From: Paenarthrobacter sp. CM16
Lineage (GTDB): Bacteria; Actinomycetota; Actinomycetes; Actinomycetales; Micrococcaceae
Direction: 5' to 3'
Assembly: GCF_013179505.1 (NCBI RefSeq)
Contig: NZ_JABMCX010000003.1
Span: 1 to 41,573, forward strand
DNA: 41,573 nt
A program made the position numbers and the translations under genes. The notes under the pieces were generated by a model. It had not been told where the DNA came from and searched no databases. It worked only from the letters and a program-made list of their open reading frames with translations. This document shows, in pieces, positions 4,018 through 33,115 of the stretch (position 1 is the first letter of the stretch; every line of letters starts with the position of its first letter).

Positions 4018-4144
4018 GCGATTTAGGTCACGACTTAGCTAATCGATGGAGTAACCCGGTAGGCTGTGGGGTGATTGTGTCGTGTTGCGCCGTGGGGGTC
4101 GGCGATGGCGGCTCCGTGCTGCCTGAACTGTGGGGGAATGTGGG
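4018..4144 (+). promoter_or_regulatory. Upstream region of giant gene 1 with weak -10 candidate
   Basis: This stretch lies between the repeat array and the first giant gene. TAGGCT (4060-4065) is the best -10 candidate and would give a leader of about 80 nt. No convincing -35 box is seen. A G-rich ribosome site, GGGGGAA (4132-4138), precedes the ATG at 4145. Confidence 0.3.
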
Positions 4145-10393: not shown

Positions 10394-10511
10394 TAGGGAC
10401 TGAAAATTCCGCCGCCGTATGGGGGTACTGCGGAATGCACGGCTGCCGGCATGTGTCGGTTGGCCCGGACGCCGCTGGGGAGCGGCTGTATATCAAGGGA
10501 ATTTTGGGGCT

Positions 10512-16500: not shown

Positions 16501-16616
16501 AGGACATCTACGGAAACGGCACCCCGTGGTACCGGCTCCAAGGCTCGCCCAAGGACGGCTGGTTCGTGAAGTCCACCACGGTGGATCTCTACGGACCGCG
16601 CCCCGGCGGTTGCTAG
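10512..16616 (+). CDS. Giant surface protein 2, tandem paralogue of giant protein 1
   Basis: A 2034-aa protein with the same order of parts as the preceding gene: basic tail and membrane anchor (about 17-39), propeller-like region to about 395, about eleven Ig-like units to about 1470, FN3-like units to about 1940, and a Cys-containing C-terminus. The segments GFKTTEVDLNDGGVWVVSK and SYVFRVNRDLVVLNDVNSG are shared almost unchanged, while the last two FN3-like units and the terminal domain diverge. The terminal domain has four cysteines (RTCPG, AKCGV, VNCTK and the final residue) and an SH3-like WYRL/GWFV pattern. The GTG at 10512 is chosen because it aligns with the paralogue start; the ribosome site (GGGG) is weak, and an in-frame start at 10419 would only add a non-homologous extension. 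An ancient tandem duplication is the simplest origin. Confidence 0.83.
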   Translation: MRNFFGKLRLTRRQNKKFIAGTAATAAGALLITGAVLYPGFKTTEVDLNDGGVWVVSKTKNAVGRLNYPSRVLDGAVTPATTTFDVLQHDGNVFVDDESGSTINQVSAANLKLGGDKQLPSSSQVSYGSTVLSVTDPARGKVWALSPSTVNGFDEEGTEPVLTGEQGLVSAVGADNRIYTADPGKGEITVTAVDANGERTDSQVTKIDELKGAGDLQISVVGDKPVVLDAGSGNLFLPGGRKLQLQDAREAKLQQSGEDSSFVAIATRKALLKQPLDGSTAATVNADGEGVPAAPVQVSKCVHAAWSGANKYVRDCENDADDKKNDVPKASASPSYVFRVNRDLVVLNDVNSGSVWLVNQNMQLVNNWDDVVPPKNQSDDQDQESADNNTINVLPDRTKPNRAPETKPDEFGVRPGRTTILSVLDNDSDPDGDVLTAAVGANGPKSGALENIYGGSAFQLKVPADAKPGTETFDYNASDGRGLSAGGQVTLRVVAPEDNKPPFFKRGEPTTMLVEQGKSVSQNILTDWMDPDGDDLVLLDAKTDNDQDQVKVRRDGLLTYQDSGAAPGKKNVTITVWDGRATTTGRIVVNVQPPGALAPVVNADHVTAVVGQDLVIAPLKNDVDPNGGALRVAHVEAAGPAELGPVTDGGTFTFRSTTPGPVYLTYIASNGPQSSQGLIRVDVESGKDSGAPVAVHDVALLPVGGSVLVDPLANDSDPSGGVLVLQSVTVPDGSSASVSVIDHSVLRVTDVLGAKEPFVFSYTMSNGRGSATGTVGVVPVPAPAVVEAPQPKPDEVNVRVNDVVTIPVLDNDTHPQGEELSVDPVLAQTIPEEDGKAFISEKTLRFIAGPTPKTVRAIYNAVDPQGQKSAAAVTIHILPLEGAQNSRPQPQNLTARVVAGGSVRIPVPLDGIDPDGDSVQLTGIDSTPTMGTATAGSSFIDFVAAGDGAGTDTFRYKVIDRQGAVNTGTVTVGVAPRGEDNQKPAPVDDEVQVRPGRQIAVDATANDTDPDGDIIRILTDSIEADAGLEAQVSKTSGRVLVTAPAAEGTVNVRYSVADDRDAVGQASIRVIVKNDIPLQAPIARDDRVTSAQTLGKTAVDVPVLKNDEDPDGVGENLKVTTGLETARPGSEGNVVVDLTEQPQLVPYTVEDVDGQKSTAIIWVPGIGQQVPTLAKDEVVEMVSGQSVTVNLAEWVKVREGKSPRLTQADRIKLIGADGSDPVAGNGTALKYTAGAEYVGPGSISFEVTDGSGPDDPNGLKSTLSIRTKVLPDPNKNNPPVLLGSDVDVPKGDSASLDLEKLASDPDSDDVQNMKYELAGAAPGGFRVSIDGRTLKVSAEDSVQIGQGGTVQVKAKDPRGLEAIATYKLRLTASNRPKPVANDDLEPEAQSGKSVTVNALANDSNPFPDTPLKIISAVTETGEGTAEVSGGNVTVTPSSGFTGTMVVAYVVGDKTGETSRYATARIRLTVKDKPAAPTTPLAQSVGDQTALLNWNASADRGSPITKYTVYGEGGFKQDCPANTCTLTGLTNNVKYHFAVTATNAIGESERSPASAEVRPDVKPDTPIAPTLKFGDKQVSVAWVAPGSKGSPIKSYDLEISPAPAGQNPQIQNLTGNSHVWTGLTNGVAYKVRVLARNDAKEPSEWSPYSAAETPAGVPATPAAPSVAGAGSVGDQSQLQVSWTAPNNNGDAVSAYTLTTYRGGAVVTTQSVGATSQNVTVANSEADYTFTVSATNKAGVSGVSQQSAAIRAAGKPGMVAAPTAALVETNAAGGKIRVAFNPLSQRERNGANANEISYRYALTSGAASGAIPAGGGIVAAPNGQDTAVVVWAVSSRNPTPGDRSPASNAVNPYGLAAAPTVTGSKSSGVGDKTVSWTWNQPSGNGRPVTGYQYSLDGGGWTDTGQRSFSTSVGFSETHTLRVRAISGGQAGNVGSDTSRSGSAPPPPEPTSQIQVDASSVRTCPGKPGQTDSYTPGSPAKCGVGWVERSWGKITVNCTKDIYGNGTPWYRLQGSPKDGWFVKSTTVDLYGPRPGGC

Positions 16617-19140: not shown

Positions 19141-21632
19141 GCACCGTGCCGAACCTTCGCGTGCGTCCCCGCGCCGCCAAGGGAGCCAGGTCCGCAGGCC
19201 GTGCCAACAGCGCCGCCGGCGGGTCGATTTTTGCCGATGGCCGCCCCTTGTGGCACTTCGCGGTGGACTGCGGCGCCTTGGTGGTGCTGCTTTTCCTTGG
19301 AGTCCTCGGCTTCAGCCTGAGTTTCGGAGGGGATCCGCATTATCTGATCGCCGGCCTGGGCGGTGTGCTGCTTGGACTGGGCATCGCTGTCCTGAACGCC
19401 CATCTCCGTTTGGGGCTGTTGATCACCGTCGCCGTGACCTTTGGCGCCTACATGCTGTTCGGCTCCGCGCTTGCTGTCCCTGATTCAGCAGTCTTCGGTG
19501 TCCTGCCGAGCCTTGATTCGTTGCGGACCCTGCTGTTGGGCGTGGTGTTTTCCTGGAAGGACATGCTCACGGTAGGTGTTCCTGTGGGTACAGCCAATGG
19601 CATGCTCATTGTGCCGTTCCTCAGCTCGCTGGTGACCGCCTTGGCCGCTGGTCTGCTGACGTGGCGCCTGAAGAGCCCGTACTGGCCCTTGCTGCCCGTT
19701 TTGGTGTTGTTCGTCACGGGTATTGCCTTCAGCACCAGTGCCGGTTTCCTCAATGTGGAACGCGGTGTTTCCCTGACCATCGTTTCGATCGTATGGGCCA
19801 CGTTCCGGCGCGATGTCCTTCGGCAAAGGAGCACCAAGACTGTCTCGGCCAACAGGCCGGATTCCGACGCCGGTGCCGCGCGCCGCGGCCAGCTCCGCAG
19901 GCTGGGGACTGCTGCAGCCGTGATTGCGGTTGCCGTCGGTGTCACCGCCATCGCCTCGCCGATTGTGACGGCCAGCGATGACCGGAAGGTGCTGCGGAAC
20001 ACGATCGTCCCGCCGTTCGATCCGCGTGACTACATCACTCCCTTGGCCAGCTTCCGGAACTTCGTCAAGGACGAGAAGGACAGCACGCTGTTCACCGTCA
20101 AGGGCTTGCCCAAGGACGCCCGCGTGCGCTTGGCCGCGCTCGATGCCTTCAACGGTTTGAACTACACCATGGATCCCAACAGCTCCGGCAACTTCAGCAA
20201 GGTGGGAGATGCCCGCTCGCTCAATACGCTGGCCGATACCGGGAGCCCGGTAAAAGGGACCAACTACACGTTGGACATCACCATTGAGGACTACCAGGGC
20301 TACTTCGTCCCTGGCGGCCGGCACACCACGGGCATGAGTTTTGCTGACACGTCCGGTGCGGCGTCGGGCCTGTACTTCAATGCCGGCACGGACACCGCGG
20401 TGACCACTAAAGGCCTGGCCAAGGGCGAGAACTACACGGTCCAGGTTGCGGACCCCGGCACCTTGGAGCACGGTCAGCTGACACAGTACGACTTCGCCAA
20501 GCTCACGCTGCCGGAGGCACAGGAAGTGCCGCCGATCGTTGCATCGCAGGCCAACGAATTGTCTGCAGATGCGCCCACGGCCATTGACCGCGTACGGCAG
20601 ATCGAAGCACATTTCCAGAAGAGCGGTGCGTTCAGCAACGGCCTGGTGACGGAGGGACAGCTTCCGAGCCTCCCCGGGCATAGCGCCGCGCGGGTCCGCA
20701 ACATGCTCTCTGCCAAGCAGATGCTGGGCGACGATGAACAGTACGCCGTGTCCATGTCCCTCATGCTCCGGCATCTGGGCATCCCCTCGCGCGTGGTGAT
20801 GGGCTTTTATCCCGATCCCAAGAGCCCCGAAAACGGTGCCGGGGACGTCAAGATCACCGGCAAGGACGTCCACGCCTGGGTTGAGGTGGCTTTTGACCGT
20901 GTGGGCTGGGTTGCCTTCGATCCCACTCCGCCCAAGGACAACGTGCCCATCCCGCCGGATCCGGAGAACAAGTCCAAGCCCAAGCCACAGGTGTTGCAGC
21001 CTCCGCCCCCGCCGCAGGAACCGGCAGACCTTCCGCCGGACTCCACCCCGGATGCCCTGGACGCTGACGAGAAGAAGAACAACCCCTGGCTGTTCTGGGG
21101 TCCGCTGTTGGCCGCCATCGGTGTGGCGCTGATTCCGTTGGGGATCCTCGCCCTGCCACTGCTGCTCATCCTCCTGTTGAAAGCACGACGCCGGAAGGCC
21201 CGTTTCCGTGACGGCCACCCCGCCCAGCGGGTAGGCGGTGGATGGAACGAGGTGATCAGCCTTGCCACCGATATGGGCGCCTCGATCGATACCAAGTCCA
21301 CGCGCCGCGAGTCGGCCACGGTCATCGCGGAGGCGTTCCCGAACGCGGGCGGCACCACCACGATGCTGGCCCACCGCGCCGACGCTGCGGTCTTTGGTGC
21401 CGGCCAGCCGAGCGAGGAGGAGGTCAAGCATTATTGGGAGATCGTGGATTCGTCCTTGACCGACATCACCGGAAGCGTAGGTTTCTGGAAGCGGCAGCAG
21501 GCCCGGTTCTCGCCGCGGTCCCTGTTGTCCGATGGCCGGGCTGCCTTGAGGCGCCGGGAGTTGGGAACCACTGATCCGGCGTCTCGTCGTCGATTCACCT
21601 GGCCGTTCAAGAAGGACACCACCAATGAGTAA
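19137..21632 (+). CDS. TgpA-like membrane transglutaminase homologue lacking catalytic Cys
   Basis: An 831-aa polytopic membrane protein. About seven hydrophobic segments lie between residues 38 and 285. A periplasmic/extracytoplasmic transglutaminase-like domain extends to about 610, followed by a Pro/Lys-rich linker, one last membrane segment (about 655-680) and a cytosolic tail. In the transglutaminase core the His (His579, HAWVEV) and Asp (Asp595, FDPTP) are present, but the usual Cys position reads GDDEQYA, placing Asp533 where Cys is expected. It is therefore probably not a transglutaminase or Cys protease and may be a binding or structural module. It overlaps DUF58 by 4 nt and the RDD/FHA gene by 8 nt. 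Confidence 0.88.
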   Translation: MSTVPNLRVRPRAAKGARSAGRANSAAGGSIFADGRPLWHFAVDCGALVVLLFLGVLGFSLSFGGDPHYLIAGLGGVLLGLGIAVLNAHLRLGLLITVAVTFGAYMLFGSALAVPDSAVFGVLPSLDSLRTLLLGVVFSWKDMLTVGVPVGTANGMLIVPFLSSLVTALAAGLLTWRLKSPYWPLLPVLVLFVTGIAFSTSAGFLNVERGVSLTIVSIVWATFRRDVLRQRSTKTVSANRPDSDAGAARRGQLRRLGTAAAVIAVAVGVTAIASPIVTASDDRKVLRNTIVPPFDPRDYITPLASFRNFVKDEKDSTLFTVKGLPKDARVRLAALDAFNGLNYTMDPNSSGNFSKVGDARSLNTLADTGSPVKGTNYTLDITIEDYQGYFVPGGRHTTGMSFADTSGAASGLYFNAGTDTAVTTKGLAKGENYTVQVADPGTLEHGQLTQYDFAKLTLPEAQEVPPIVASQANELSADAPTAIDRVRQIEAHFQKSGAFSNGLVTEGQLPSLPGHSAARVRNMLSAKQMLGDDEQYAVSMSLMLRHLGIPSRVVMGFYPDPKSPENGAGDVKITGKDVHAWVEVAFDRVGWVAFDPTPPKDNVPIPPDPENKSKPKPQVLQPPPPPQEPADLPPDSTPDALDADEKKNNPWLFWGPLLAAIGVALIPLGILALPLLLILLLKARRRKARFRDGHPAQRVGGGWNEVISLATDMGASIDTKSTRRESATVIAEAFPNAGGTTTMLAHRADAAVFGAGQPSEEEVKHYWEIVDSSLTDITGSVGFWKRQQARFSPRSLLSDGRAALRRRELGTTDPASRRRFTWPFKKDTTNE

Positions 21633-23202
21633 TGAGGCCGAACTCTGCCCGGCCTGCAAGCATGCAGTCCGTCCCGGGGCTGCGTTCTGCACCCAGTGCG
21701 GTTCCCCCCTGAGCAACCGCGGAGCCCGCAAGGAAGGGAACATCAACCACGCCCAAAAGGCGGCTTTGGAGTTCGCAACCCGGCAGGGCCTGCCCGATCC
21801 CGGTAGTATCTCGGTAGTGTCGGCGCCGGCGTCGCCGACGCACCCGGTGCCTTCGGGAGCCACCATCGCGCCGGACCGTATCACTGGGCCAGGGGGAGGG
21901 ACCACCATGACCACCAAGCTCGAGCTGGTGCCCGCATCTGCCGGGAAGAGGCTTGGCGCTGCTGTACTGGACTGGCTGGGCCCCATCGCTGTCCTGGCTA
22001 CCACCTTCGCCATTGGCATCGCCGGCATTACGCAAACCCGCAGGAACGGCTTCATTGTCTATGACACGGGCCTGCTGGTTCTCCTCGGCAGCATCGGCCT
22101 GGGCGTGACAGCGGTCTATGTCTTCGTGCTGCTGGCACTCGAGGCCAAATCCGGCAACACTGTGGGCAACCAACTCATGGGTATCCGAAGCGCCGACGCC
22201 GAGGGCTACGCTCCCGGGGCCGGTGCCGTGTTTGTCCGCGGCATCATCACCGGCGGCGTCCTGCTCCTTGGCGGGATCACCTCGGTGGTCCTTTCCGCCC
22301 TTGGCCTGATTTCCCTGGTCCTGTGGATCGGGCTTCCGTTGATGTTCCTCGGTGTCGTCTGGGCTATCCTCGTGGTGGTTTCCAATGCCTGGGACAAGAA
22401 CGGCAAGCTGCGCGGCTGGCAGGACAAGGCCGCAAAGTCTTTGGTGTTCGACGTCCATGCAGGGCGCAACCCCGTGGCTACCGGAGGTATCCAGGGCCCC
22501 TATAGTTTTGCGCCGATGGATCTGCCTCCGGTGCAGCCGGTTGCTTCCCCGGTACCCTCCGGTGCCGGGCAGTCCACGACGATTCATGCTTCGCCTGCAC
22601 AGGGAACTCACGCGCAGGCGGGCCCTGTGGTGCCGGCAGCCCAGCAACCCTCACATGACCCCAACCAGTGGCGTCCGCCGTCGGCTCCACGGCCACCTGC
22701 GGCAGCACAACAACAGGCACCGGCCACGCAGCAGCCCCACGTCATCCACCCTCAGGTGACGCCGCAACCCCAGGCCGAACAACAACCGTCCGCGCCGGTT
22801 CCCGGCTTTGGAAGCCATCCCGACGACGACGTCGAGCGCACCCAGATGCGCCCGGGCACCGCACGGGCACAAGCGGTCCTGCGGATCCAGGTAGATGACG
22901 GACAGGACGTGCAGCTGGGCGGTTCGTGCCTTTTGGGACGCAATCCTGCCGCACAGCCGGGTGAAGCTGTAGAGCAACTGTTGCCCGTGGTCGATCCCGG
23001 CAGGTCCATCTCCAAAACCCATCTGCATCTTCGGGTCGATGGTGATGGTGTCTGGGTCACGGACCGAAACTCGACCAACGGCAGCGCCGTTACCACGCCC
23101 GATGGCCTCCAGACACGACTCCATCCGGGCCAGCCAGTATTGGTCCGTCCCGGTTCCACCGTCCACTTTGGCGACCGTTCCTTCCACCTAGGACAAGCAT
23201 GA
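21625..23202 (+). CDS. Zinc-ribbon, RDD membrane and FHA domain protein
   Basis: A 525-aa protein. It begins with a four-Cys zinc ribbon (Cys8, Cys11, Cys22, Cys25). An RDD-type membrane domain follows at about 105-285, starting ASAGKRLGAAVLDWL and containing NTVGNQLMGIR. A Pro/Gln/Ala-rich linker precedes a C-terminal FHA domain (about 415-525) with the phospho-Thr pocket signature SISKTHLHL and NSTNG. Just before the FHA domain is Thr406 in DVERTQMRPG, a candidate kinase site placed much as in OdhI/GarA, where a phosphorylated N-terminal Thr binds the protein's own FHA. It is coupled to TgpA (8-nt overlap) and to PP2C (4-nt overlap). Probable role: membrane-bound phospho-Thr reader; transported substrate, if any, unknown. 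Confidence 0.88.
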   Translation: MSNEAELCPACKHAVRPGAAFCTQCGSPLSNRGARKEGNINHAQKAALEFATRQGLPDPGSISVVSAPASPTHPVPSGATIAPDRITGPGGGTTMTTKLELVPASAGKRLGAAVLDWLGPIAVLATTFAIGIAGITQTRRNGFIVYDTGLLVLLGSIGLGVTAVYVFVLLALEAKSGNTVGNQLMGIRSADAEGYAPGAGAVFVRGIITGGVLLLGGITSVVLSALGLISLVLWIGLPLMFLGVVWAILVVVSNAWDKNGKLRGWQDKAAKSLVFDVHAGRNPVATGGIQGPYSFAPMDLPPVQPVASPVPSGAGQSTTIHASPAQGTHAQAGPVVPAAQQPSHDPNQWRPPSAPRPPAAAQQQAPATQQPHVIHPQVTPQPQAEQQPSAPVPGFGSHPDDDVERTQMRPGTARAQAVLRIQVDDGQDVQLGGSCLLGRNPAAQPGEAVEQLLPVVDPGRSISKTHLHLRVDGDGVWVTDRNSTNGSAVTTPDGLQTRLHPGQPVLVRPGSTVHFGDRSFHLGQA

Positions 23203-24122
23203 ATTCACAGCCGGCCACCCCTGCCAACGCCGAAACCGGAGCCCCCGGGGGGCCGTCCTTCGGCCTGAGCTACGGGTACGGGACGGATCGCGGACTCCGG
23301 CGTGAACTGAACGAGGACTCGTTCATCGCTGCCGACCCCGTTTTTGCTGTGGCCGACGGCATGGGTGGGCATGAGGCCGGCGAAATCGCCAGCGGCATGT
23401 GCGTACGGGCCTTGGGCAGTGCCCCCGAACTTGCTGCCGGTGTGCGTACCGCCTCTGCTGCGGATTTGCAGGCCTGCCTGTTGAGGGCCGACGCTGGAAT
23501 CCGCAATGCCACGGGAGCACGCGCAGGAACCACATTGTCCGGCGTGGTGGTGGTGGAACAGATGGGCCTGCCCTACTGGCTGGTGATGAACATCGGCGAT
23601 TCCCGGACCTACCGCCTCAGCCAAGGGGAGTTCACCCAGGTCAGCGTGGACCACTCCGAGGTCCAGGAACTGGTTGATTCCGGAGACATCACTGCCGAGC
23701 AGGCAACCATTCATCCCCGCCGCCACGTAGTGACCCGTGCCTTGGGCACCGGTGATGAGACCGAGGCCGATTTCTGGTTGCTTCCCATCCAGGAAGGCGA
23801 CCGGATCATGATCTGCTCCGACGGCCTCAACGGTGAACTGGGCGATGACCACATGTTCCGCATCCTCAGCACCGTAGCCCATCCCCAGGATGCCGTGGAT
23901 GCGCTGATCCAGGCTGCCCTGCGAAGCGGCGGCCGGGACAACGTCACCGTGATCGTGGTGGACGCCAAGAACGTCTTGAACGACGCCGGCATCGCCACCA
24001 CAGCGCCCCGCCCCGAGGTTGCATCCGAGGTTGAAGAGGACACTCTTCCCCGGGCCTGGGTTAATGGCACGGATGAGCCATCCCCGGCTGACCAGGAGGA
24101 AGGCGCCGATGGCAAGCAGTAA
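23199..24122 (+). CDS. PP2C-type Ser/Thr protein phosphatase
   Basis: A 307-aa soluble metal-dependent phosphatase. All main PPM motifs are present: NEDSF with Asp40, VADGMGGHEAGE with Asp53/Gly54, GTTLSG, NIGDSR, CSDGL with Asp208, and RDNVTVIVVD with Asp247. It should be active and is the expected antagonist of the Ser/Thr kinase encoded 2 kb downstream. Unlike PstP it has no membrane segment. An acidic C-terminal tail of about 50 residues contains Thr282 in EEDTLPRAW, one of the recurring Thr motifs of this cluster. It starts inside the previous gene (ATGA overlap, 4 nt), and the next gene starts 14 nt before its stop. Confidence 0.95.
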   Translation: MNSQPATPANAETGAPGGPSFGLSYGYGTDRGLRRELNEDSFIAADPVFAVADGMGGHEAGEIASGMCVRALGSAPELAAGVRTASAADLQACLLRADAGIRNATGARAGTTLSGVVVVEQMGLPYWLVMNIGDSRTYRLSQGEFTQVSVDHSEVQELVDSGDITAEQATIHPRRHVVTRALGTGDETEADFWLLPIQEGDRIMICSDGLNGELGDDHMFRILSTVAHPQDAVDALIQAALRSGGRDNVTVIVVDAKNVLNDAGIATTAPRPEVASEVEEDTLPRAWVNGTDEPSPADQEEGADGKQ

Positions 24123-26145
24123 CCTTTCGCTGACCCGCTACCAGCAGGGTGACTGGTTTGGCGTGGTGCGGAACGGAACCGTGGTGCTCCTTGGCCCGGA
24201 CACCCCGCATGCGCTGATCGATACCGTTTGGGAGTTGCTGGACTCAGCTCCCGAGGCCCATGAGGTCCTTCACGAAGTGACGGATGCCTTTGGCGTTTCA
24301 CTGAGCCGCATCCCTCCGTTCGGGATCATCGATTCCAAGGATGCGCTCCGTGTTTTCCTCCGTGGTGATCTCGAATTGCTGGTCCAGTCCGAATCGGGCG
24401 CCGAGGAGCTCACCGGCCGTGATGTGACCACCTGGACGGAGCGCCGGCTTGCCGGCGTAACCTCCTACAGTCTCCGGATCGGTGGCGGCTCAGCCTCGGA
24501 CATGCCGTTGAACAGCCTTCCCCTGGCGGAGGGTGTGGTGCTGTTGTCAGTCCTGGAAGCCGCCGGCGCACCAGCCCGCGAGGCAGGTCCTGCCATCCAT
24601 GCTGCCGCCGTCCCGCTGGCGGAACCGAAGGAACCGGCAAAGGACAGGGAAGAGCAGCCCGCGGTTCAGGACCGGGTTTCCGATGAGACCATGATCGGTT
24701 ACACAGAGGCTGACCTTGGGCTGACCATCGCACCGGGCCAACTCTCCGCCGGCCAGCTCTCCAACGGCCAGCCCTCCGACAACCGGGCCTCAGGTGGCCA
24801 GTCGGCGGCCGGCGAGTCTGCCGAAACCGACGAGTCTGCCGAAACCGACGAGTCTGCCGAAACCGACGAATCTCCGGAAGCCTACGGGTCTCCGGACGCC
24901 GGAGCGGTTGCCGGTGGGGCACTGGCTTCCATGTCATCAGCCTCGGCGGGGGAAATCCCTGCGGTAGTTGAGTCTTCGCAACCGGGAGCGCTCCCGCATC
25001 CCGATCACCTGCAAGGCCAGGAAAAGGACGACGAAACCGGGAAAGCGGCGGCTGCGGAGCCATCCGTCCACGATCCAGCGGTGGAGGACGCCCGGGAAGA
25101 GTCGGGGGCCCCTGTCCACACCAGCACCACCGATCCGTTGTTGCCCACGTTGGAAAACACCACCAACTACGATCACTTGTGGGACAAAACGGTGATGCGG
25201 AACATTGAAGACGCCGCTGTCCGGGCGGAAGAAGACTCCGACGACCACGACGCCCCTGCATCCAAAACGCCGGATGCTCCCCAGGCCTACACTCCGGAAA
25301 CCCCTGTTGAGCAACTCCCTGCTCCGGAGCCGGCAGCCCGGGAATCCGTTGAGCAACCCGCGGCAGCCCCGCAAGGGTCCGGGCTGATCGATTCCGTGCC
25401 CTGGCTCCGCAGCAGCCCCGCCACGCCGGAGGCAGCCAGTGCCCCGCCTGGGCTTTCGAGCATGCCTGCCATGCCAGCTACAGGTACGGCCCCATCCACG
25501 GGAGCTGGCCCTTCACAGCCAGGTACGGACCCTGCCCCGCAGCTTCCGGGCGGCTGGCCGCCTGCCGGCGTCGTCGACGAGGATTCAGACCATGACGGCC
25601 AAACCATCATGAAGAGCAGCCTGGTTGCTGACCCTGCGGATGCAGCCAGTCCCGGGCCTGATGTTCCGAACGCCGCGGTTGCCAACGGGCCCAGCGTCCT
25701 TGCAAGGGTGTGCCCGCAAGGGCACGCAAATCCGCCTACGTACCCGCAGTGTTCCGTTTGTGGCACCGCATTGTCCGGCGATGCGCAGCAGGTCCCGCGT
25801 CCATGTCTTGGCCGGATGCGCCTTTCCACAGGTGAGCTGATTGATCTTGACCAGTCGCTGATCATTGGACGGCAACCTTCCGTTTCCCGTGTCCAGGGCG
25901 GCACCATGCCCAAGCTGGTGCAGGTGGAGAGTCCCGGTGGGGACATCTCCCGCTCCCACGTCGAGGTCAGGTTGGAAGGTTGGCACGTCATGTTGTGCGA
26001 CCTGAAGGCAACCAACGGAACAGTGTTGATCAGGGAAGGCCAGGCACCCCGCCGGCTTGCCCAAAACGAGATGGCCATCCTGTTGGACGGCGACATCGCC
26101 GAGTTGGGTGACGACATTTCATTGCGTTTCGAGGAGATTCTTTGA
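24109..26145 (+). CDS. Zinc-ribbon/FHA protein with long disordered linker
   Basis: A 678-aa cytosolic protein. An N-terminal conserved domain of about 145 residues that I cannot name (it starts with LSLTRYQQGDWFGVVRNG) is followed by a very long acidic, Pro/Ser/Thr/Ala-rich linker. A treble-type zinc ribbon (Cys535, His539, Cys548, Cys551; CPQGH...CSVCG) and a C-terminal FHA domain (about 560-678; DISRSHVEV, ATNGT) close it. The linker carries three Thr motifs: Thr194 (DETMIG), Thr361 (DKTVMRN) and Thr499 (GQTIMKS). I chose the ATG at 24109 because AGGAGGAAGG (24094-24103) precedes it by 5 nt; the upstream frame lies within the phosphatase gene. Likely a multisite kinase substrate and FHA adaptor. 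Confidence 0.85.
   Translation: MASSNLSLTRYQQGDWFGVVRNGTVVLLGPDTPHALIDTVWELLDSAPEAHEVLHEVTDAFGVSLSRIPPFGIIDSKDALRVFLRGDLELLVQSESGAEELTGRDVTTWTERRLAGVTSYSLRIGGGSASDMPLNSLPLAEGVVLLSVLEAAGAPAREAGPAIHAAAVPLAEPKEPAKDREEQPAVQDRVSDETMIGYTEADLGLTIAPGQLSAGQLSNGQPSDNRASGGQSAAGESAETDESAETDESAETDESPEAYGSPDAGAVAGGALASMSSASAGEIPAVVESSQPGALPHPDHLQGQEKDDETGKAAAAEPSVHDPAVEDAREESGAPVHTSTTDPLLPTLENTTNYDHLWDKTVMRNIEDAAVRAEEDSDDHDAPASKTPDAPQAYTPETPVEQLPAPEPAARESVEQPAAAPQGSGLIDSVPWLRSSPATPEAASAPPGLSSMPAMPATGTAPSTGAGPSQPGTDPAPQLPGGWPPAGVVDEDSDHDGQTIMKSSLVADPADAASPGPDVPNAAVANGPSVLARVCPQGHANPPTYPQCSVCGTALSGDAQQVPRPCLGRMRLSTGELIDLDQSLIIGRQPSVSRVQGGTMPKLVQVESPGGDISRSHVEVRLEGWHVMLCDLKATNGTVLIREGQAPRRLAQNEMAILLDGDIAELGDDISLRFEEIL
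24814..24867 (+). repeat. Three perfect 18-bp tandem copies encoding ESAETD
   Basis: The unit GAGTCTGCCGAAACCGAC occurs three times without mismatch (24814, 24832, 24850) and decays into related codons to about 24900. It encodes an acidic Ser/Thr-containing hexapeptide in the disordered linker of the FHA protein. Copy number is likely to vary between strains. Confidence 0.9.
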
Positions 26146-27914
26146 GTTCCAAGAGGCCCCCCGCGCCGCCTCCACCCATTCCCGGATTCCAGTACGTCAG
26201 CCTGCTCGGCTCGGGCGGATTCTCGGATGTGTACCTGTACGAACAAGACAGGCCCCGCCGCAAAGTAGCCGTTAAGGTGCTGCTTTCGGACCTGAAAACC
26301 GAGGGCGCACGGCGTCGCTTCGAGTCCGAGGCCAACCTGATGGCCCAGCTATCCTCGCACCCGTACATCGTGACGATCTTCGAAGCGGAGATCACGGAGA
26401 ACGGCCATTCCTACCTCGCCATGGAATATTGCTCCAGGCCGAGCCTCGATGTCCGGTACCGCCGGCAGCGCTTCAGCGTGGACGAGGTCCTGGCCGTCGG
26501 CATCCAGGTGGCTTCCGCCGTCGAAACCGCCCACCGGGCCGGCATTGTGCACCGTGACATTAAGCCTGCAAATATCCTGGTCACCGACTACAACCGGCCT
26601 GCCCTGACGGACTTTGGTATCTCCGGTACCATCGGCGCCGACACCGAGGATGACGCCGGGATGTCCATTCCGTGGTCGCCGCCGGAGCAGTTCCGTGGCG
26701 GCGCCGTGGACGGGGTTCCCGTGGACATCTGGGCCCTTGGCGCCACCCTGTACACGCTCCTGGCCGGCCGTTCGCCCTTTGTTCTGCCCGGGCAGGACAA
26801 TTCGCAGCGCGAGCTCATTTCGCGCATCACCAACTCGCCCCTTCCCAGGCTTGGGCGGGCGGATGTTCCGGAGTCCCTGGAGCTGGTGCTGGCCACGTCC
26901 ATGGCGAAATCGCCGGGGTCCCGGTACTCCTCGGCCCATGCTTTTGCCTTGGCGCTCCAACGGATCCAGACAGAACTGAATTTGTCAGTGACGCCCTTTG
27001 AGGTTCTTGAGGAACCCGGTCACGGCGACGAGCAACATCCGGATGACAACTTCGAGGAAACCCGGGTCCGGAGCATTGCGTCCATCGATCCGGACGCGTC
27101 CGGAACGGCCACCACGGGTTCCGCGCCCACGTTCCCGGCGCGGACCTTTCCCTCCACCGTTCCAGGGGCCACCCAGCCTCCTGGGCAGTTGGCCGGTCCG
27201 CCGCAGACAGTGCAGCCGAACCAGCTCAGGCCCGCCCAGCCAACGCAAGCCCAACCAACTCCCGCCCAACCAACGCAAGCCGGCACCACTCAGCAAACCC
27301 CGCCCCGGTTCCATGCGCCGGTCCGGGACAACAGCCCAGCGGAGGAACCGGACGTTGCTGAGTCCACAGTCCTTCGCGGTTGGCAGTCCTCACCGGGCAC
27401 GGTGGACGATGCCACGGTCGACCGCTCGAATGCCTCTGCAGGGGTACCGGCGGCGGGTGAAGATGACGTCCCGGCAGCGGACCACAGCAAGCGCAATCTG
27501 TGGCTTGCCGCCACCGGCGCAGCAGTGCTGGTGGTCGCCGTCGTGGTTGGCATGGTCCTGGGCTCCTCGGCACCACCGAAAGTCGCTCCGACGGAAACGG
27601 CCAGCAAAGCTCCGGCCGACCCCTTGGATAGTGGCAGCGTCCCTGACGTCGAAGCACTGGCCGCGGCGCGGGATACCAAGGATCCGAACATCATTGTTTT
27701 CTCGTGGAAGAACCCGCAGCCCAAAGAGGGCGATACCTACAAGTGGCGCACCAAATCGGCCAAAGCCGACGGCGCCTACGAGACCACACGGACAGAGAAG
27801 GCATTCGTCTCCGGATTCGGTGAACCGCCCATTTGCGTGCAGGTCATTATTGTCCGATCGGACGGCAGCGCGTCGCCTGAGGGGCCGGGCTCCATCGCTT
27901 GCCTGGACGGGTAG
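26142..27914 (+). CDS. Membrane Ser/Thr protein kinase with FN3-like ectodomain
   Basis: A 590-aa Hanks-type kinase. The catalytic domain (about 14-275) has the glycine loop GSGGFSDVY, Lys45 in VAVKVL, HRDIKPAN (Asp139), DFG (157-159) and a PPE in place of APE. A Pro/Gln/Thr-rich juxtamembrane linker holds Thr307 (EETRVRS) and Thr409 (ESTVLRG). One membrane helix (about 450-472) leads to an extracellular C-terminal module of about 95 residues that looks FN3-like and carries two cysteines (ICVQV, IACLDG). PASTA repeats are absent. The start is a TTG at 26142, with GAGGAGA upstream and a TTGA overlap with the preceding stop. The order kinase plus Fn3, MoxR, DUF58 and phosphatase matches the bifidobacterial Pkb2/PFNA arrangement. 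Confidence 0.93.
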   Translation: MSSKRPPAPPPPIPGFQYVSLLGSGGFSDVYLYEQDRPRRKVAVKVLLSDLKTEGARRRFESEANLMAQLSSHPYIVTIFEAEITENGHSYLAMEYCSRPSLDVRYRRQRFSVDEVLAVGIQVASAVETAHRAGIVHRDIKPANILVTDYNRPALTDFGISGTIGADTEDDAGMSIPWSPPEQFRGGAVDGVPVDIWALGATLYTLLAGRSPFVLPGQDNSQRELISRITNSPLPRLGRADVPESLELVLATSMAKSPGSRYSSAHAFALALQRIQTELNLSVTPFEVLEEPGHGDEQHPDDNFEETRVRSIASIDPDASGTATTGSAPTFPARTFPSTVPGATQPPGQLAGPPQTVQPNQLRPAQPTQAQPTPAQPTQAGTTQQTPPRFHAPVRDNSPAEEPDVAESTVLRGWQSSPGTVDDATVDRSNASAGVPAAGEDDVPAADHSKRNLWLAATGAAVLVVAVVVGMVLGSSAPPKVAPTETASKAPADPLDSGSVPDVEALAAARDTKDPNIIVFSWKNPQPKEGDTYKWRTKSAKADGAYETTRTEKAFVSGFGEPPICVQVIIVRSDGSASPEGPGSIACLDG

Positions 27915-27959: not shown

Positions 27960-28664
27960 ATGGGGGATCTAGCAATAGATTTCTGTGGGGAATGGTACGA
28001 ACCATCCGACGAAGACGTCTTTGACATTGGTCGCGAAGGTGACCTGGAGGTCGACGACAACCCGTACCTGCACCGACGCTTCCTGCAGATCGCCCGTTAC
28101 GACGGCATGTGGTGGCTCAGCAACGTGGGCAGTATGTTGTCTGCCACCATCGCCGATGGTTCCGGTGGGATGCAGGCCTGGCTCGCACCCGGAGCAAGGA
28201 TCCCGCTGGTCTTCAGCCACACCAATGTGATCTTCACAGCCGGGCCCACCACCTATGAGTTCGCCGTCCACTTGAAGACGCCGTCATTCCGGCATGAGGC
28301 CCGCGAAGAGGACCAGGCCGGGGACACCACCATTGGGCCCGTGGTCTTTACCGACTCGCAGAAGGCCTTGATCGTGGCCTTGGCTGAGCCCATGCTGCGG
28401 CGCGAAGGCACCGGTTTCAGTGCCATCCCTTCCTCAGCAGAAGCCGCCAAGCGGCTGGGTTGGGCTCTGACACGCTTCAACCGCAAGCTGGACAACGTGT
28501 GCGACAAACTGGACCGCGTGGGCGTAGTGGGCTTGCGCGGTGGTGCAGGGAAACTTGCCACCAACCGCCGGGCCCGCCTGGTGGAACACGCTGTGACCTC
28601 GCATTTGGTGACCCCGGCCGATTTGCACCTCCTTGAGAAAATGACTGGAGTCGACGAAGGATGA
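27960..28664 (+). CDS. Degenerate FHA-like plus winged-helix protein
   Basis: A 234-aa soluble protein. Residues about 1-105 have an FHA-like beta pattern (DIGREGDLEV, then PYLHRRFLQI). The Ser that normally lies three residues before the conserved His and the Ser/Thr-Asn-Gly loop are both missing, so phospho-Thr binding is doubtful. Residues about 130-225 are helical and resemble the winged-helix segment seen in other actinobacterial FHA proteins (LTRFNRKLDNVCDKLDRVGV). A 45-nt gap separates it from the kinase; GAGGAGG (27945-27951) gives a strong ribosome site. It overlaps the secretion ATPase by 4 nt, which suggests stoichiometric co-production. DNA binding or protein scaffolding are both possible. 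Confidence 0.78.
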   Translation: MGDLAIDFCGEWYEPSDEDVFDIGREGDLEVDDNPYLHRRFLQIARYDGMWWLSNVGSMLSATIADGSGGMQAWLAPGARIPLVFSHTNVIFTAGPTTYEFAVHLKTPSFRHEAREEDQAGDTTIGPVVFTDSQKALIVALAEPMLRREGTGFSAIPSSAEAAKRLGWALTRFNRKLDNVCDKLDRVGVVGLRGGAGKLATNRRARLVEHAVTSHLVTPADLHLLEKMTGVDEG

Positions 28665-31600
28665 AGTTTCGCCTGACCTTGCGGCGCGATCCTGCAGAAG
28701 CAAAGGACCTCGCCGTAACGGTGGATGGCCGCGCCACCGTTGCTGACATTGCTACGGAACTCTGGGCCGCCGACCCCGCACGCAAGGGGACCGAACCGCC
28801 GTCGAACCTGTCCATCAGTGTGGACGAAGCGTTTGTTGGCGGCGGCCTGTCCGGGCACATCCTGCGGCCCACCGACAACTTGCTGGAGTCCGGACTTCGC
28901 CCCGGTTCCAAGGTTTCGCTCGCCCAGGTCAGCGAACAGTTCGCCTCGAACGGCCACGGAAACGGCACTAACAGGGGACCGGCAGCTGCGACGTTGCGCG
29001 TCATGTCAGGGCCCGACGTCGGACGCGAATTTTCGCTGCCTTTCGGCACCAGCTACATCGGCCGGGACCGGGACGCCGACATCCGGCTCACCGACCCCCT
29101 GACCTCCAAGCGCCATGCCCGCGTCACAGTGGGCGAAACGGTGGAGATCGTGGACACCAACTCCGCCAACGGCCTGCTGATGGATGGGCTGCCCGTCACC
29201 CGGGCAACCTTGCAATCCTCGGACACGGTCACCCTGGGGGACACCACGGTAGGGGTGGTGGCGTTGTCGCGCAACCATGGCGGCGGACCGTCGTCGCCTT
29301 TGGTGGACTTCAACCGCTCACCGCGGGTGCTTCCGAGGTTCGAGTCTCCCAAGCGCGTGCCGCCGGCCGGTCCTAAGCGCCCCGAGCACCAGCCGTTCCC
29401 GTACATCATGCTGGTGGCTCCGCTGCTGATGGGCGGCGTGCTCTTTGCCGTCACCCAGAACCTGCTATCGGTGCTCTTCATGGCCATGATGCCGCTGTTC
29501 ATCGTGGGGCACTATGTGGACCACAAGATGCAGAGCAAGCGCCAGGCCAAGGAAGGCCACAAGCAGTTCAAAGCCGCCATGCTGGCGTTCCGCGAGGACA
29601 TTGACCGGCAGCAGAACATTGAGCGCGCCGTCAGGCTCCAGGAAGCGCCGTCGGTCAGCGATACTGTGGACGCGATCTACAAGCTTGGCCCCCTGCTGTG
29701 GACCAACCGTCCCGAGCACCAGCACTTCCTGGGCGTCCGGTTCGGTCTGGGTTCCGCGCCGTCGCGCATCCCGTTCGACGAGCCCGGTGCCAACGAGACA
29801 GAACCGCAATACATGCGGGAAATCCAAGAGTGCCTGCAGCAGGTCCGCGTGATTGAGGGCGTGCCGATCGTTTCCCAACTGCGCACCTCCGGCTCGTTCG
29901 GCGTTGCGGGGGACCGCAGCGTGGTGGACGATGTTGCCCGCGGGATGGTGCTCCAACTGGTGGGCCTCCACTCGCCGGCGGAAGTGGTGCTGACCTCGCT
30001 GACCTCGGCGCGTTCGCGCGAACGCTGGGACTGGCTGCAATGGCTCCCGCATGTGGGTTCAGGCCACAGCCCCCTCTCCGGCGACCACCTCGCCGCCGGC
30101 CCCGGTGCCGGTGCTGCCTTGTTGTCCAGATTGGAAAGCCTCGTGGAGGAACGCGAGTCCATGGCCAAGGAACCGGGCCCCCAGCCCCGACCAGGTCTTA
30201 AGGACGAACACGAAGAAATCCCCGCGCCCGTGGTTCCGGCGGTCCTGGTGATCGTTGAAGACGATGCTCCCGTGGACCGGGGACGGCTGACCCGGCTGGT
30301 GGAACGAGGCCCGGATTACGGCGTGCACATCATGTGGGTGGCGGCCAACGTACAGTCGCTTCCCGCGGCGTGCCGTGATTTCCTTTCCGTCGACGGCGAT
30401 CACGGCACCACCACCGGACAGGTGCGCCTGGGCCGCCACACATACCCTGTGAGCTGCGAAAGCCTCGACGCCGATCTCGCCACCCAACTGGCGCGCATGA
30501 TGTCGCCGCTGGTGGATGTTGGAAACCCGCTCGACGACGACTCCGACCTCCCGCGTGCCGTTTCCTACGCCACGCTGATCGGCAAGGAGTTGATGGACAA
30601 CCCGCAGGCCGTGGCCGAGCGCTGGCAGGAAAACAACTCAGTCCACGCAACGGCAGTGCCCAACCGCAAGGACAACGGCAGCCTCCGTGCTTTGGTTGGC
30701 TCCAAGGGCGTGGAGCCGTTCTACCTGGATTTGAAGAACGAGGGCCCCCACGCACTGGTCGGTGGAACCACCGGTGCCGGCAAGTCCGAATTCCTCCAGT
30801 CGTGGGTGATGGGCATGGCCGCGGCGTACAGCCCGGACCGTGTCAGCTTCCTGTTCGTGGACTACAAGGGCGGTGCCGCTTTCGCGGACTGCCTCCACTT
30901 GCCCCACACTGTGGGCCTGGTGACCGACCTGTCCCCGCACCTGGTTCGCCGTGCGCTGACGTCCCTGCGCGCCGAGCTGCACTACCGGGAACGGCTCCTG
31001 AACCGTAAGAAAGCCAAGGACCTGCTGGCCCTGCAACGCGAAGCCGATCCCGAGGCCCCGCCTTACCTGATCATCATCGTGGACGAGTTTGCGGCTTTGG
31101 CCACGGAAGTTCCCGAGTTTGTGGACGGCGTGGTGGACGTCGCCGCCCGAGGCCGTTCGCTGGGCTTGCACCTGATCCTGGCCACCCAGCGCCCCGCCGG
31201 CGTCATCAAGGACAACCTGCGGGCCAACACCAACCTCCGCGTTGCTTTGCGCATGGCCGATGAAGTGGATGCCGTGGATATCCTCGGTGTTCCCACTGCT
31301 GCTTACTTTGATCCCTCGATCCCGGGTCGTGGCGCTGCAAAAACTGGTCCTGGCCGCATCCAGGGTTTCCAGACCGGCTACGCCGGTGGCTGGACCACCG
31401 AGAAACCCCAGCGTCCCAGGATCGACATCGTGGAGATGGCCTTCGGTTCCGGACCCACGTGGGAACCACCGTTGGTGTCCCAGGTAGAGGAAGAACCGGC
31501 TGGACCCAACGACATCGCCCGCATGACCGGAAACATCATCCGTGCCGCCGACGTCCTGTCCATCGAACCTCCCCGGAAGCCGTGGCTTAACGAACTCGCC

Positions 31601-33115
31601 ACTACCTATGATTTCTCCAAGCTCCCCAATCCGCGGACGGATGAGCGGCTGCTGCTGGGTGTAGCGGACGATCCCGCCCACCAGGACCAGCCCACGGTGT
31701 TCTACGAACCGGACAAGGACGGCAACATGGCCGTCTACGGCACGGGCGGATCCGGAAAGTCGGCTGGGTTGCGCAGTATCGCCATCGCCGCTGCCGTCAC
31801 ACCCCGCGGTGGTCCGGTGCACGTTTACGGCATCGACTGCGGTTCCTCGGGCTTGAAGATGCTGGACGGACTCCCGCACGTTGGTGAAATCATCAACGGC
31901 GACGACGTAGAACGCGTGGGCCGCCTGCTGCGCTGGCTCAAAGAAGTGGCCGATGACCGTGCAGCCCGGTTTGCTGAGGTCCGGGCCTCGACCATTGTCG
32001 AGTACCGGCAGTTGGCCAACCGGCCGGATGAGAAGCGCATCTTCATCCTGGTTGACGGCATGTCCTCCTTCCGGGAAGGCTACGAGTACAGCAAGTTGTC
32101 CGCGCTCTGGGATATCTTCCTGACCCTGGCTACCGACGGACGTCCCTTGGGCATCCACCTGGTTGTCAGCGGTGACCGCACCAACTCTGTTCCGGCGTCG
32201 CTCCTTGCTTCGATCCAGAAGCGGTTGGTCCTGCGCCTTAGTTCCGAAGACGACTACATGACCCTGGACGTCCCCAAGGACGTCCTCAATGCCGCCTCGC
32301 CTCCCGGCCGAGGGCTCCTGGATGGGCTGGAAGTCCAGCTCGCCGTGTTGGGTGGCAACTCCAACCTGGCCCTGCAAGCGCGCGAAGTGGCAAAGCTCAG
32401 CCAGGCCATGCTCCGCCAGGGACTCGAGCAGGCACCGCAGATCCAGCGACTGCCGGAACTGGTGGACCTGGATATCCTCCCCACCGGTGCCCCGGACAAC
32501 CCCGTGATAGGCGTCGACGACGAAACGCTGGGTTCGGCGGCAATCGCCGCCAAGGGTTCGCTTCTCCTGGCCGGCCCTCCGGGTGCCGGACGGACGGTTG
32601 CGCTGGTTACCTTGGCGTACGCTTTGCGTCGCTCCAACCCGAGGACGGACCTGATCTACATCGGTTCACGCCGTTCCGCTGTTGCCTCCTTGAACATCTG
32701 GAGCCGCTCGCTGGTGGGCCCGGATGAAGTGTCGGACGTCGTGGATGACTTGATCGACAAAGCCTCGGACAACCCGGGGAGTATGGCCATTTTCATTGAG
32801 GGGCTCACCGAGTTCACGGACACACTGGCAGAGTCGGGCGTCGGGCGCCTGGTCACGGCGGCCATCAAAGCCGACCAATGGGTGGTGGGGGAGTCCGAAA
32901 CCTCCACTTGGTCCCAGGCCTGGTCCCTGGCCCAGCCGTTCAAGTCCGGACGCCGTGGACTCTTGCTCAACCCCGGTGATGTGGAAGGCGACAGCCTGCT
33001 CAACACCTCCCTGGGCCGGATCAGCACGGACTTCATTCCGGGTCGTGGCTACATTGTTGGACGGGGCAAGGTACGCAAATTGCAGATCGCCATGCCGCCG
33101 GAGAACCGAAGCTAG
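28661..33115 (+). CDS. Ubiquitin-like/FHA/FtsK-SpoIIIE secretion ATPase, EssC/EccC-like
   Basis: A 1484-aa membrane motor of the type VII secretion ATPase class. Order: ubiquitin-like fold (about 1-92), FHA domain (about 106-198; SKRHARV, NSANG), two membrane helices (about 247-290), then three FtsK/SpoIIIE-type ATPase units. Unit 1 is intact: GGTTGAGKSE with Lys708 and VDEFAAL with Asp808/Glu809. Unit 2 keeps Lys1033 (GTGGSGKS) but its Walker B reads VDGMSSF. Unit 3 has Arg1311 instead of Lys (GPPGAGRT). In EssC/EccC proteins unit 1 does the hydrolysis and units 2-3 recognise substrate, which fits. FHA followed by two helices recalls Bacillota EssC more than mycobacterial EccC. No WXG100, EccB/D/E or mycosin gene is in the window. 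Confidence 0.9.
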   Translation: MKFRLTLRRDPAEAKDLAVTVDGRATVADIATELWAADPARKGTEPPSNLSISVDEAFVGGGLSGHILRPTDNLLESGLRPGSKVSLAQVSEQFASNGHGNGTNRGPAAATLRVMSGPDVGREFSLPFGTSYIGRDRDADIRLTDPLTSKRHARVTVGETVEIVDTNSANGLLMDGLPVTRATLQSSDTVTLGDTTVGVVALSRNHGGGPSSPLVDFNRSPRVLPRFESPKRVPPAGPKRPEHQPFPYIMLVAPLLMGGVLFAVTQNLLSVLFMAMMPLFIVGHYVDHKMQSKRQAKEGHKQFKAAMLAFREDIDRQQNIERAVRLQEAPSVSDTVDAIYKLGPLLWTNRPEHQHFLGVRFGLGSAPSRIPFDEPGANETEPQYMREIQECLQQVRVIEGVPIVSQLRTSGSFGVAGDRSVVDDVARGMVLQLVGLHSPAEVVLTSLTSARSRERWDWLQWLPHVGSGHSPLSGDHLAAGPGAGAALLSRLESLVEERESMAKEPGPQPRPGLKDEHEEIPAPVVPAVLVIVEDDAPVDRGRLTRLVERGPDYGVHIMWVAANVQSLPAACRDFLSVDGDHGTTTGQVRLGRHTYPVSCESLDADLATQLARMMSPLVDVGNPLDDDSDLPRAVSYATLIGKELMDNPQAVAERWQENNSVHATAVPNRKDNGSLRALVGSKGVEPFYLDLKNEGPHALVGGTTGAGKSEFLQSWVMGMAAAYSPDRVSFLFVDYKGGAAFADCLHLPHTVGLVTDLSPHLVRRALTSLRAELHYRERLLNRKKAKDLLALQREADPEAPPYLIIIVDEFAALATEVPEFVDGVVDVAARGRSLGLHLILATQRPAGVIKDNLRANTNLRVALRMADEVDAVDILGVPTAAYFDPSIPGRGAAKTGPGRIQGFQTGYAGGWTTEKPQRPRIDIVEMAFGSGPTWEPPLVSQVEEEPAGPNDIARMTGNIIRAADVLSIEPPRKPWLNELATTYDFSKLPNPRTDERLLLGVADDPAHQDQPTVFYEPDKDGNMAVYGTGGSGKSAGLRSIAIAAAVTPRGGPVHVYGIDCGSSGLKMLDGLPHVGEIINGDDVERVGRLLRWLKEVADDRAARFAEVRASTIVEYRQLANRPDEKRIFILVDGMSSFREGYEYSKLSALWDIFLTLATDGRPLGIHLVVSGDRTNSVPASLLASIQKRLVLRLSSEDDYMTLDVPKDVLNAASPPGRGLLDGLEVQLAVLGGNSNLALQAREVAKLSQAMLRQGLEQAPQIQRLPELVDLDILPTGAPDNPVIGVDDETLGSAAIAAKGSLLLAGPPGAGRTVALVTLAYALRRSNPRTDLIYIGSRRSAVASLNIWSRSLVGPDEVSDVVDDLIDKASDNPGSMAIFIEGLTEFTDTLAESGVGRLVTAAIKADQWVVGESETSTWSQAWSLAQPFKSGRRGLLLNPGDVEGDSLLNTSLGRISTDFIPGRGYIVGRGKVRKLQIAMPPENRS

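Follow-up and report, generated by a model that had tools for sequence, protein, structure and literature searches.

Introduction

In the threonine-phosphorylation pathway of the type VI secretion system (T6SS), as outlined in PMC6082577 and PMC3953482, PpkA phosphorylates Fha, Fha assembles on the secretion machine and PppA reverses the process. Here we describe a locus of Paenarthrobacter sp. CM16 (contig NZ_JABMCX010000003.1, positions 1 to 41,573 of the forward strand; this whole stretch of 41,573 nucleotides is referred to as the window) in which a putative membrane threonine kinase, a phosphatase and an FHA protein are likewise encoded together, and in which the linkers of these proteins, and of a second FHA protein with an RDD domain, carry short sites of the form Thr-x-x-Arg/Lys, called tags below. 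The locus differs from the T6SS pathway in that several tags on writer (kinase), reader (FHA proteins) and eraser (phosphatase) share one T-x-x-R code. No T6SS family was among the Pfam matches of the 17 open reading frames scanned in the window, a comparison that included neither an aimed T6SS search nor a genome-wide scan. Our best reading, which is by analogy, is that the module operates in the manner of the T6SS pathway while using a phosphothreonine (pThr)-x-x-Arg code of its own.

A second likeness is to the PFNA operon of bifidobacteria, which comprises pkb2, fn3, aaa-atp, duf58, tgm, prpC and fha (PMC8430577, PMC10688814) and is stated in PMC10688814 to be found only in Bifidobacterium. 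By its published description it has the same kinds of gene (kinase, giant FN3 protein, MoxR, DUF58, transglutaminase, PP2C and FHA), and Pfam matches place the kinase, the giant FN3 protein, the MoxR AAA protein, DUF58 and the transglutaminase of this PFNA-type set in the one window; here, however, the set is enlarged by an RDD-FHA protein, a degenerate FHA protein and an EssC-like ATPase and the gene order differs, and a tag code is not described in the sections of PMC8430577 and PMC10688814 that were consulted. The tails of GarA/OdhI and DgcB share with the present tags a phospho-Thr in a disordered tail beside an FHA domain (PMC6733907, PMC2784874), T14/T15 of OdhI lying ahead of an FHA domain at 43-143 (PMC2784874); those tails have a hydrophobic residue at +3 and bind their own FHA domain (PMC6733907), whereas the tags described here have Arg/Lys at +3 and are mostly on other proteins. 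A PknA-dependent motif of Mycobacterium tuberculosis resembles the tags in its acids upstream of Thr and its Pro at +2, and differs, as given in PMC7164672, in having a hydrophobic +3 and a basic +4, where the tags have a basic +3 and no enrichment of basic residues at +4.

Bacterial phosphosites usually come from mass spectrometry and are seldom tied to a reader. In this case sequence alone is enough to point to eight likely phosphosites, to a likely reader and to a residue that may set its specificity, and no description of these tags was found in the literature searched, which covered few subscription journals. We consider it likely that these Thr-x-x-Arg/Lys sites act as phospho-switch tags within a single writer-reader-eraser module, encoded by a PFNA-like cluster.

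Results and discussion

Conserved Thr-x-x-Arg/Lys sites in four proteins

A sequence-only reading of this DNA had pointed to a recurring motif in four proteins of the cluster, with six strong sites and a weaker one, and all six are present as Thr with Arg or Lys at +3. One, T406-QMR (22840..22851; all features given here are on the + strand), is in the RDD/FHA protein (reader 1; 21625..23202), which has a Zn-ribbon, an RDD membrane domain, a linker and an FHA domain (Pfam RDD, FHA). Another, T282-LPR (24042..24053), is in the linker tail of the PP2C phosphatase (eraser; 23199..24122; Pfam PP2C_2). The FHA protein (reader 2; 24109..26145), made up of an N-terminal domain, a linker of ~400 residues, Cys pairs and a C-terminal FHA domain (Pfam FHA), carries T361-VMR (25189..25200) in the block YDHLW..TV.R.IEDAAVR and T499-IMK (25603..25614) in DHDGQTIMK. 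The Hanks-type kinase (writer; 26142..27914; Pfam Pkinase), which has a hydrophobic segment after its linker, carries T307-RVR (27060..27071) and T409-VLR (27366..27377). Two sites were absent from the sequence-only reading, T268-APR of the phosphatase (24000..24011) and T425-VDR of the kinase (27414..27425); the observation is confirmed, and had been under-called.

Alignment of orthologues had been suggested as a check, and it bears the motif out. The genus alignment has 38 rows, the window and 37 of 40 fetched loci, these 40 being the closest by phosphatase of 60 relatives; L045, L063 and L069 were dropped, two having short or broken frames and one lacking the cluster. While the surrounding linkers change, Thr is kept in 38/38 rows at all six strong sites and at T268, and in 36/38 at T425 (two gaps). 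Every one of these Thr is followed by Arg/Lys at +3: Arg in 38/38 at T406, T268, T361, T307 and T409, Arg in 37 and Lys in one at T282, Lys in 38/38 at T499 and Arg in 36/36 at T425. Three or four Thr codons are in use per site, so that it is the protein that is kept and not the DNA, which rules out a constraint at the DNA level. In the same linkers 10/57 window Thr and 3/65 Ser are invariant; invariant Thr without a basic +3 also exist (T351 of the FHA protein, T325 and T330 of the kinase), so not every invariant Thr is a tag. The two in the kinase belong to a second conserved island, the invariant or nearly invariant block TGSAPTFPART (27114-27146; T325, T330 and T335), which is without a basic +3. 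The linker of the FHA protein has in addition a tandem repeat of ESAETD (24814-24870) and a conserved LIDSVPW island (25384-25404; FIDWVP in another family) that is not a Thr tag.

The motif had been described as acidic residues before the Thr and, in most cases, a basic residue at +3, and only the second half of this is constant. An acid within -1 to -4 is missing at T268 in 36/38 rows and at T409 in 30/38, and +2 at T425 may be Ser, His, Gln, Asn, Asp or Gly; the constant feature is therefore T-x-x-R/K, with the upstream acid optional. The weaker candidate, T194 of the FHA protein (DETMIG; 24688..24690), has a conserved Thr (35/38) but Gly at +3 (27 rows, with Ala in seven and Glu in one), and was rejected as a motif member for this reason.

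Beyond the alignment, 20 further genus relatives comprised seven with the cluster, 12 without it and one with a broken copy (L289). The seven keep T406, both phosphatase tags, T361, T499 and T307 with Arg/Lys at +3; the T409 pattern was matched in one of them, and in every one the kinase linker holds two or three more stretches of T-x-x-R/K. Twelve loci from another family of the order largely keep the phosphatase EDTxPR, the kinase HTRIR, the TMLRP region and the FHA block with TVFR, and T499 was not seen in that family; in L073 and L075 the +3 residue of T499 is Ser. Outside the genus the T361 block was recovered from 18 of the 39 rows, every one with Arg at +3.

A Thr-specific Arg/Lys at +3

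The pattern of the sequence-only reading (acid at -1 to -3, hydrophobic, Ala or Pro at +2, Arg/Lys at +3) has six matches among the 57 Thr of the four window linkers against a shuffled mean of 0.46, six being reached in 0/1000 shuffles; placed on Ser it has 0/63. As background, in 137 open reading frames of one genus member it fits 31/2,696 Thr and 43/2,936 Ser. Because the motif had been picked after seeing the window, the test was repeated on 15 other genera without the window, with one locus per genus (RDD protein found in five, phosphatase in 15, FHA protein in 15 and kinase in 14). Here the pattern had 35 matches against 6.0 expected, and its Ser version two against 6.1. The excess comes mostly from the phosphatase (alone 11 against 0.69) and the kinase (alone 19 against 2.54), neither count being reached in 1000 shuffles.

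When no motif was assumed, Arg/Lys at Thr+3 was the strongest neighbour tested in the four linkers of the 15 genera, loci that had not been picked by FHA type (79 against 31.7, z 8.7). Arg/Lys at Ser+3 numbered 21 against 32.1, and Arg at Thr+2 or Thr+4 was not enriched. Acid was enriched at Thr-2 (115 against 82.5, z 4.1) but depleted at -1 (64 against 83.4, z -2.5), and the upstream acid was dropped as the core of the motif in favour of the +3 Arg. The same preference is found in the kinase and phosphatase linkers (56 stretches) of 30 loci of the acidic FHA type described below, one per GTDB genus: Arg/Lys numbered 112 against 38.0 at Thr+3 and 24 against 27.7 at Ser+3, with no enrichment at Thr+2 or Thr+4, in tests that, like those above, count genera as independent though they are related. 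Another possibility, that such sites are a generic feature of any kinase/FHA/PP2C locus, is only partly ruled out by the origin-proximal PknA/PknB/Stp/FHA locus of 10 genus members, in which 2/20 FHA proteins have the pattern.

The phosphatase tail is lost with the partner genes

Thirteen of the 60 other genus genomes sampled (12 of the later 20 together with L069) lack the cluster and have retained the phosphatase. A whole-genome search of these 13 found the FHA gene in none, and no close copy of the kinase, the best matches reaching 87-111 bits against 615-1,313 in four cluster-bearing genomes. Their phosphatases keep the PP2C domain and end 3 to 16 residues past the last conserved strand (13/13). 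The T-x-P-R/K tail is present in 0/13 of them against 47/47 cluster-bearing genus members, and in 3/3 outgroups; L289, which has no readable phosphatase frame, was left out of this comparison. On the resulting tree of 63 rows, presence and absence of the tail take four changes, at least two of which are forced by supported branches. As the tail is missing where the FHA and kinase genes are missing, the phosphatase tags go with the partners and not with phosphatase catalysis; since the two genes are missing together, the comparison cannot tell which of them needs the tags. The presence or absence of Thr-x-x-Arg tags together with a reader gene offers a way to look for more partners of the kinase.

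Writer, readers and the reader pocket

The catalytic Lys, HRD Asp, Asn and DFG Asp of the cluster kinase are kept in 81/82 loci, the remaining one being unaligned. Its activation loop (26610-26687) is short, ends in GMSIPWSPPE and is without the Thr pair usual in activation loops of PknB-like kinases; it is similar in the relatives compared. Three FHA domains had been called intact in the sequence-only reading, and residue conservation agrees: the pThr-binding Arg, Ser and Asn are kept in 68/68 aligned RDD/FHA proteins (70 given) and in 79/79 FHA proteins, and in the EssC-like ATPase (reader 3; 28661..33115; Pfam FHA, FtsK_SpoIIIE) Arg and Ser are kept in 80/80 and Asn in 78/80, where the kinase and FHA counts of 79, 80 or 82 may each include one duplicate.

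How an FHA domain might select Arg at +3 is suggested by Rad53 FHA1, in which Asp at +3 is selected through a salt bridge to Arg83, the residue two positions ahead of the pThr-binding Ser85 (PMC4037201). In the FHA protein this position (S-2, assigned by BLAST mapping) is Asp612 (25942..25944), two residues before the pThr-binding Ser614, and S-2 is Asp or Glu in 73/79 FHA proteins. An acid is found there in 0/68 RDD FHA domains (Ser in 63/68), in 1/80 EssC-like FHA domains and in 0/20 origin-locus FHA domains, which have Tyr or Gly. The closest solved structure by sequence, the FHA domain of FhaA (TB39.8/Rv0020c; 3po8, E 0.00018), has Gly at S-2 in the alignment where the FHA protein has Asp. 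As in Rad53 FHA1, the residue two before the pThr-binding Ser would read +3. An acid at S-2 facing a tag with Arg at +3 would then repeat the Rad53 pair with the charges swapped, Asp612 being on the domain and Arg on the ligand.

Eight loci, from two families and five genera, have His at S-2 and allow this pairing to be followed. Their phosphatase tails read TLPN, TLPD, TLPD, TRPN, TVPD, TLPD and TRPM. T-x-P-R/K anywhere in the phosphatase tail is found in 0/7 His loci, in 92/94 acidic loci (91/93 distinct places, as L104 and L218 are the same place twice) and in 3/4 others, with a genus-level Fisher value of 7.5e-5 for acidic against His; 11 of 116 FHA proteins, with no phosphatase in the stretch or of other FHA type without genus assignment, are outside this table. 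An alternative count that takes only the last T-x-P is blurred, with 74 basic and 18 not among acidic loci and 3 basic and 8 not among the others (Fisher p 0.0006 by locus, 0.012 by genus). The first kinase tag of the His loci reads TRVS, TRIS, TRIS, TRVS, TRIS, TRVV and TRVG; in the corresponding table acidic loci have 85 basic and 3 not, the others 3 and 7, and the acidic misses include L220 and L258, where the stretch is other than the usual tag. Across the linkers of His loci Thr+3 shows no enrichment of Arg/Lys (8 against 5.5) but an excess of Asp/Asn (20 against 11.0; 6/1000 shuffles) and a weak one of Ser (13 against 7.2; 24/1000).

Four genomes carry two such clusters (L233/L250, L235/L251, L241/L252 and L253/L258). 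In one, G709, a single contig carries the His-type L235 (tail TRPM) and, about 15 kb away, the Glu-type L251 (tail TRPR); G750 likewise has one His-type and one Glu-type locus (L233, L250). We put forward, tentatively, a switchable charge code in which an acidic residue of the FHA pocket reads Arg at +3 and in which one lineage re-coded reader and tags together, to His and to mostly Asp, Asn or Ser at +3; on present evidence we rate it as somewhat less likely than not. If it were true, two such clusters in one cell would be insulated from each other by the re-coding. It also makes a direct test possible: a one-residue FHA swap, asking whether the domain then reads the other code.

A proposed module and its alternatives

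The tags persist in linkers that otherwise change, and those of the phosphatase are lost without the partners; for these reasons they are probably switchable docking sites of one module. We propose that the kinase, predicted to be in the membrane, would phosphorylate its own cytoplasmic linker at T307, T409 and T425, the linker of the FHA protein at T361 and T499 and the phosphatase tail at T268 and T282, and probably the RDD/FHA protein at T406. The FHA domain of the FHA protein would bind pThr-x-x-Arg, with Asp612 pairing with the +3 Arg. As the FHA protein itself bears two tags, it could also bind to itself and serve as a scaffold on which kinase and phosphatase come together, probably beside the EssC-like ATPase, whose own FHA domain is intact and which may connect the module to export. 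The PP2C phosphatase, recruited through its tags, would then reset the assembly. The sequence-only reading had proposed a shared kinase-target and FHA-docking code, and this part of it is well supported, if indirectly, by the Thr-only conservation, the Thr-specific +3 Arg, the intact writer and readers, the absence of phosphatase tags without partners and the co-change with S-2.

A number of observations weigh against the motif or against this proposal. In the 15 genera the earlier pattern is not significant in the RDD protein alone (five found; 1 against 0.27, 241/1000 shuffles) or in the FHA protein alone (4 against 2.48, 230/1000). Outside the genus +3 of T406 is Arg in 1/11 and Ser in 6/11, and in L082 the Thr itself is replaced by Ser. 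The pattern recurs once in the origin-locus Stp (10/10) and once in a PknB-like kinase there (8/10). The pairing with S-2 would explain one reader only, since the RDD and EssC-like FHA domains are without the acid, and its co-change counts as one event, the seven His loci with a kinase grouping as a single clade (support 100/97) when 48 chosen loci are placed in a tree. There are exceptions to it: L094, L226 and L056, with Gly or Asn at S-2, keep Arg; the acidic L088 has DTIPT, the acidic L250 has no T-x-P and in the acidic L075 the first kinase tag reads TRMN; the Tyr-type L225 has TEPD in the phosphatase but Arg/Lys in the kinase; and one TRLR tag persists in the His locus L231.

The alternative that survives best is that the sites are a mere consensus of the cluster kinase, the +3 Arg being its substrate preference and pThr acting by charge or through other readers with no FHA docking. 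In its favour, both the kinase and the phosphatase bear tags, and Hanks kinases have a preference for Thr; the +3 Arg could be the kinase's own preference instead of the reader's, a point that also counts against our proposal; and the loss of kinase and FHA genes together from the 13 genomes means that the phosphatase-tail result does not separate the two. Against this, an acid at S-2 sets the FHA protein's domain apart from the others, and in the His clade the S-2 residue changes together with +3. FHA domains have also been reported to show high specificity for pThr (PMC3146460) and often to take +3 into account (PMC6733907, PMC4037201), though PMC4037201 calls the general FHA +3 rule controversial. 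We regard a kinase consensus with no docking as unlikely.

The sequence-only reading had also compared T406 to the OdhI/GarA switch, that is, to an autoinhibitory site bound by the RDD protein's own FHA domain, a reading compatible with the proposed module. T406 lies shortly before an intact FHA domain, and at least 90% of 21 loci have Thr at this site. In a model of RDD residues 395-525 without phosphate, however, the first FHA strand begins 13 residues after T406, the first 20 residues have block means of 48 and 49 for the predicted local distance difference test score (pLDDT) and no secondary structure, and the T406 segment is undocked. The hydrophobic +3 of the GarA, OdhI and DgcB tails is absent at T406, where Arg is found in 38/38, and S-2 of this FHA domain is mostly Ser. 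The comparison is not supported: a switch of this kind appears unlikely, and docking of T406 in trans, rather than on its own FHA domain, is likelier.

A further explanation is that the tags serve as conventional docking motifs for kinase or ATPase without being phosphorylated, Thr being no more than the favoured residue. Short conserved islands within disordered linkers are typical of docking motifs, and a hydrophobic residue or Pro at +2 with Arg at +3 could fit a groove. The absence of any Ser in place of Thr at the six strong sites across 38 genus members, and the lack of enrichment of the Ser version of the pattern, make this very unlikely. Chance likeness, which the low complexity of the linkers and the choice of the motif after reading might suggest, was ruled out by the pooled counts (reached by 0/1000 shuffles in the window and in the 15 other genera), the conservation of the sites in place and the +3 position test, and we give it next to no weight.

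The gene cluster and further observations

By Pfam matches to the window's open reading frames, the order of the cluster is two giant immunoglobulin-like (Ig)/FN3 proteins (4130-10261 and 10419-16616), a MoxR ATPase, DUF58, a transglutaminase, the Zn-ribbon/RDD/FHA protein, the PP2C phosphatase, the FHA protein, the kinase, a 234-residue protein and the FHA/FtsK (EssC-like) ATPase, the kinase, PP2C and FHA genes adjoining. The combination of FHA and FtsK/SpoIIIE ATPase in one protein, a type VII (EssC) feature, is present in the last of these. Relatives of the cluster were sampled in about thirty actinobacterial GTDB genera, and the cluster is a minority trait, with matches to the 234-residue protein in 31/296 genomes of the class; among named records the closest to this protein is from Paenarthrobacter aurescens TC1 (100%).

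The 234-residue protein (27960..28664) has no Pfam match and consists of a degenerate FHA-like domain and a C-terminal helical domain. Its model (mean pLDDT 77) matches the folds of Rv1747 FHA-1, GarA and OdhI, which suggests a fourth FHA domain of the cluster, and the pThr-binding Ser is replaced by His in 88/88 aligned (90 given). Between the FHA-like and helical halves lies a conserved connecting stretch, G[DE][TS]T[IVM]G.

A second close copy of the cluster kinase (L290) is present in the genome of the window (G000, where the window itself is on contig 223) at 8472-10142 of contig 65, an 11-kb contig on which none of the six other cluster proteins tested was matched. This is either a paralogue or a contaminant contig, and the kinase that it encodes keeps EETRVR together with a TGLR stretch.

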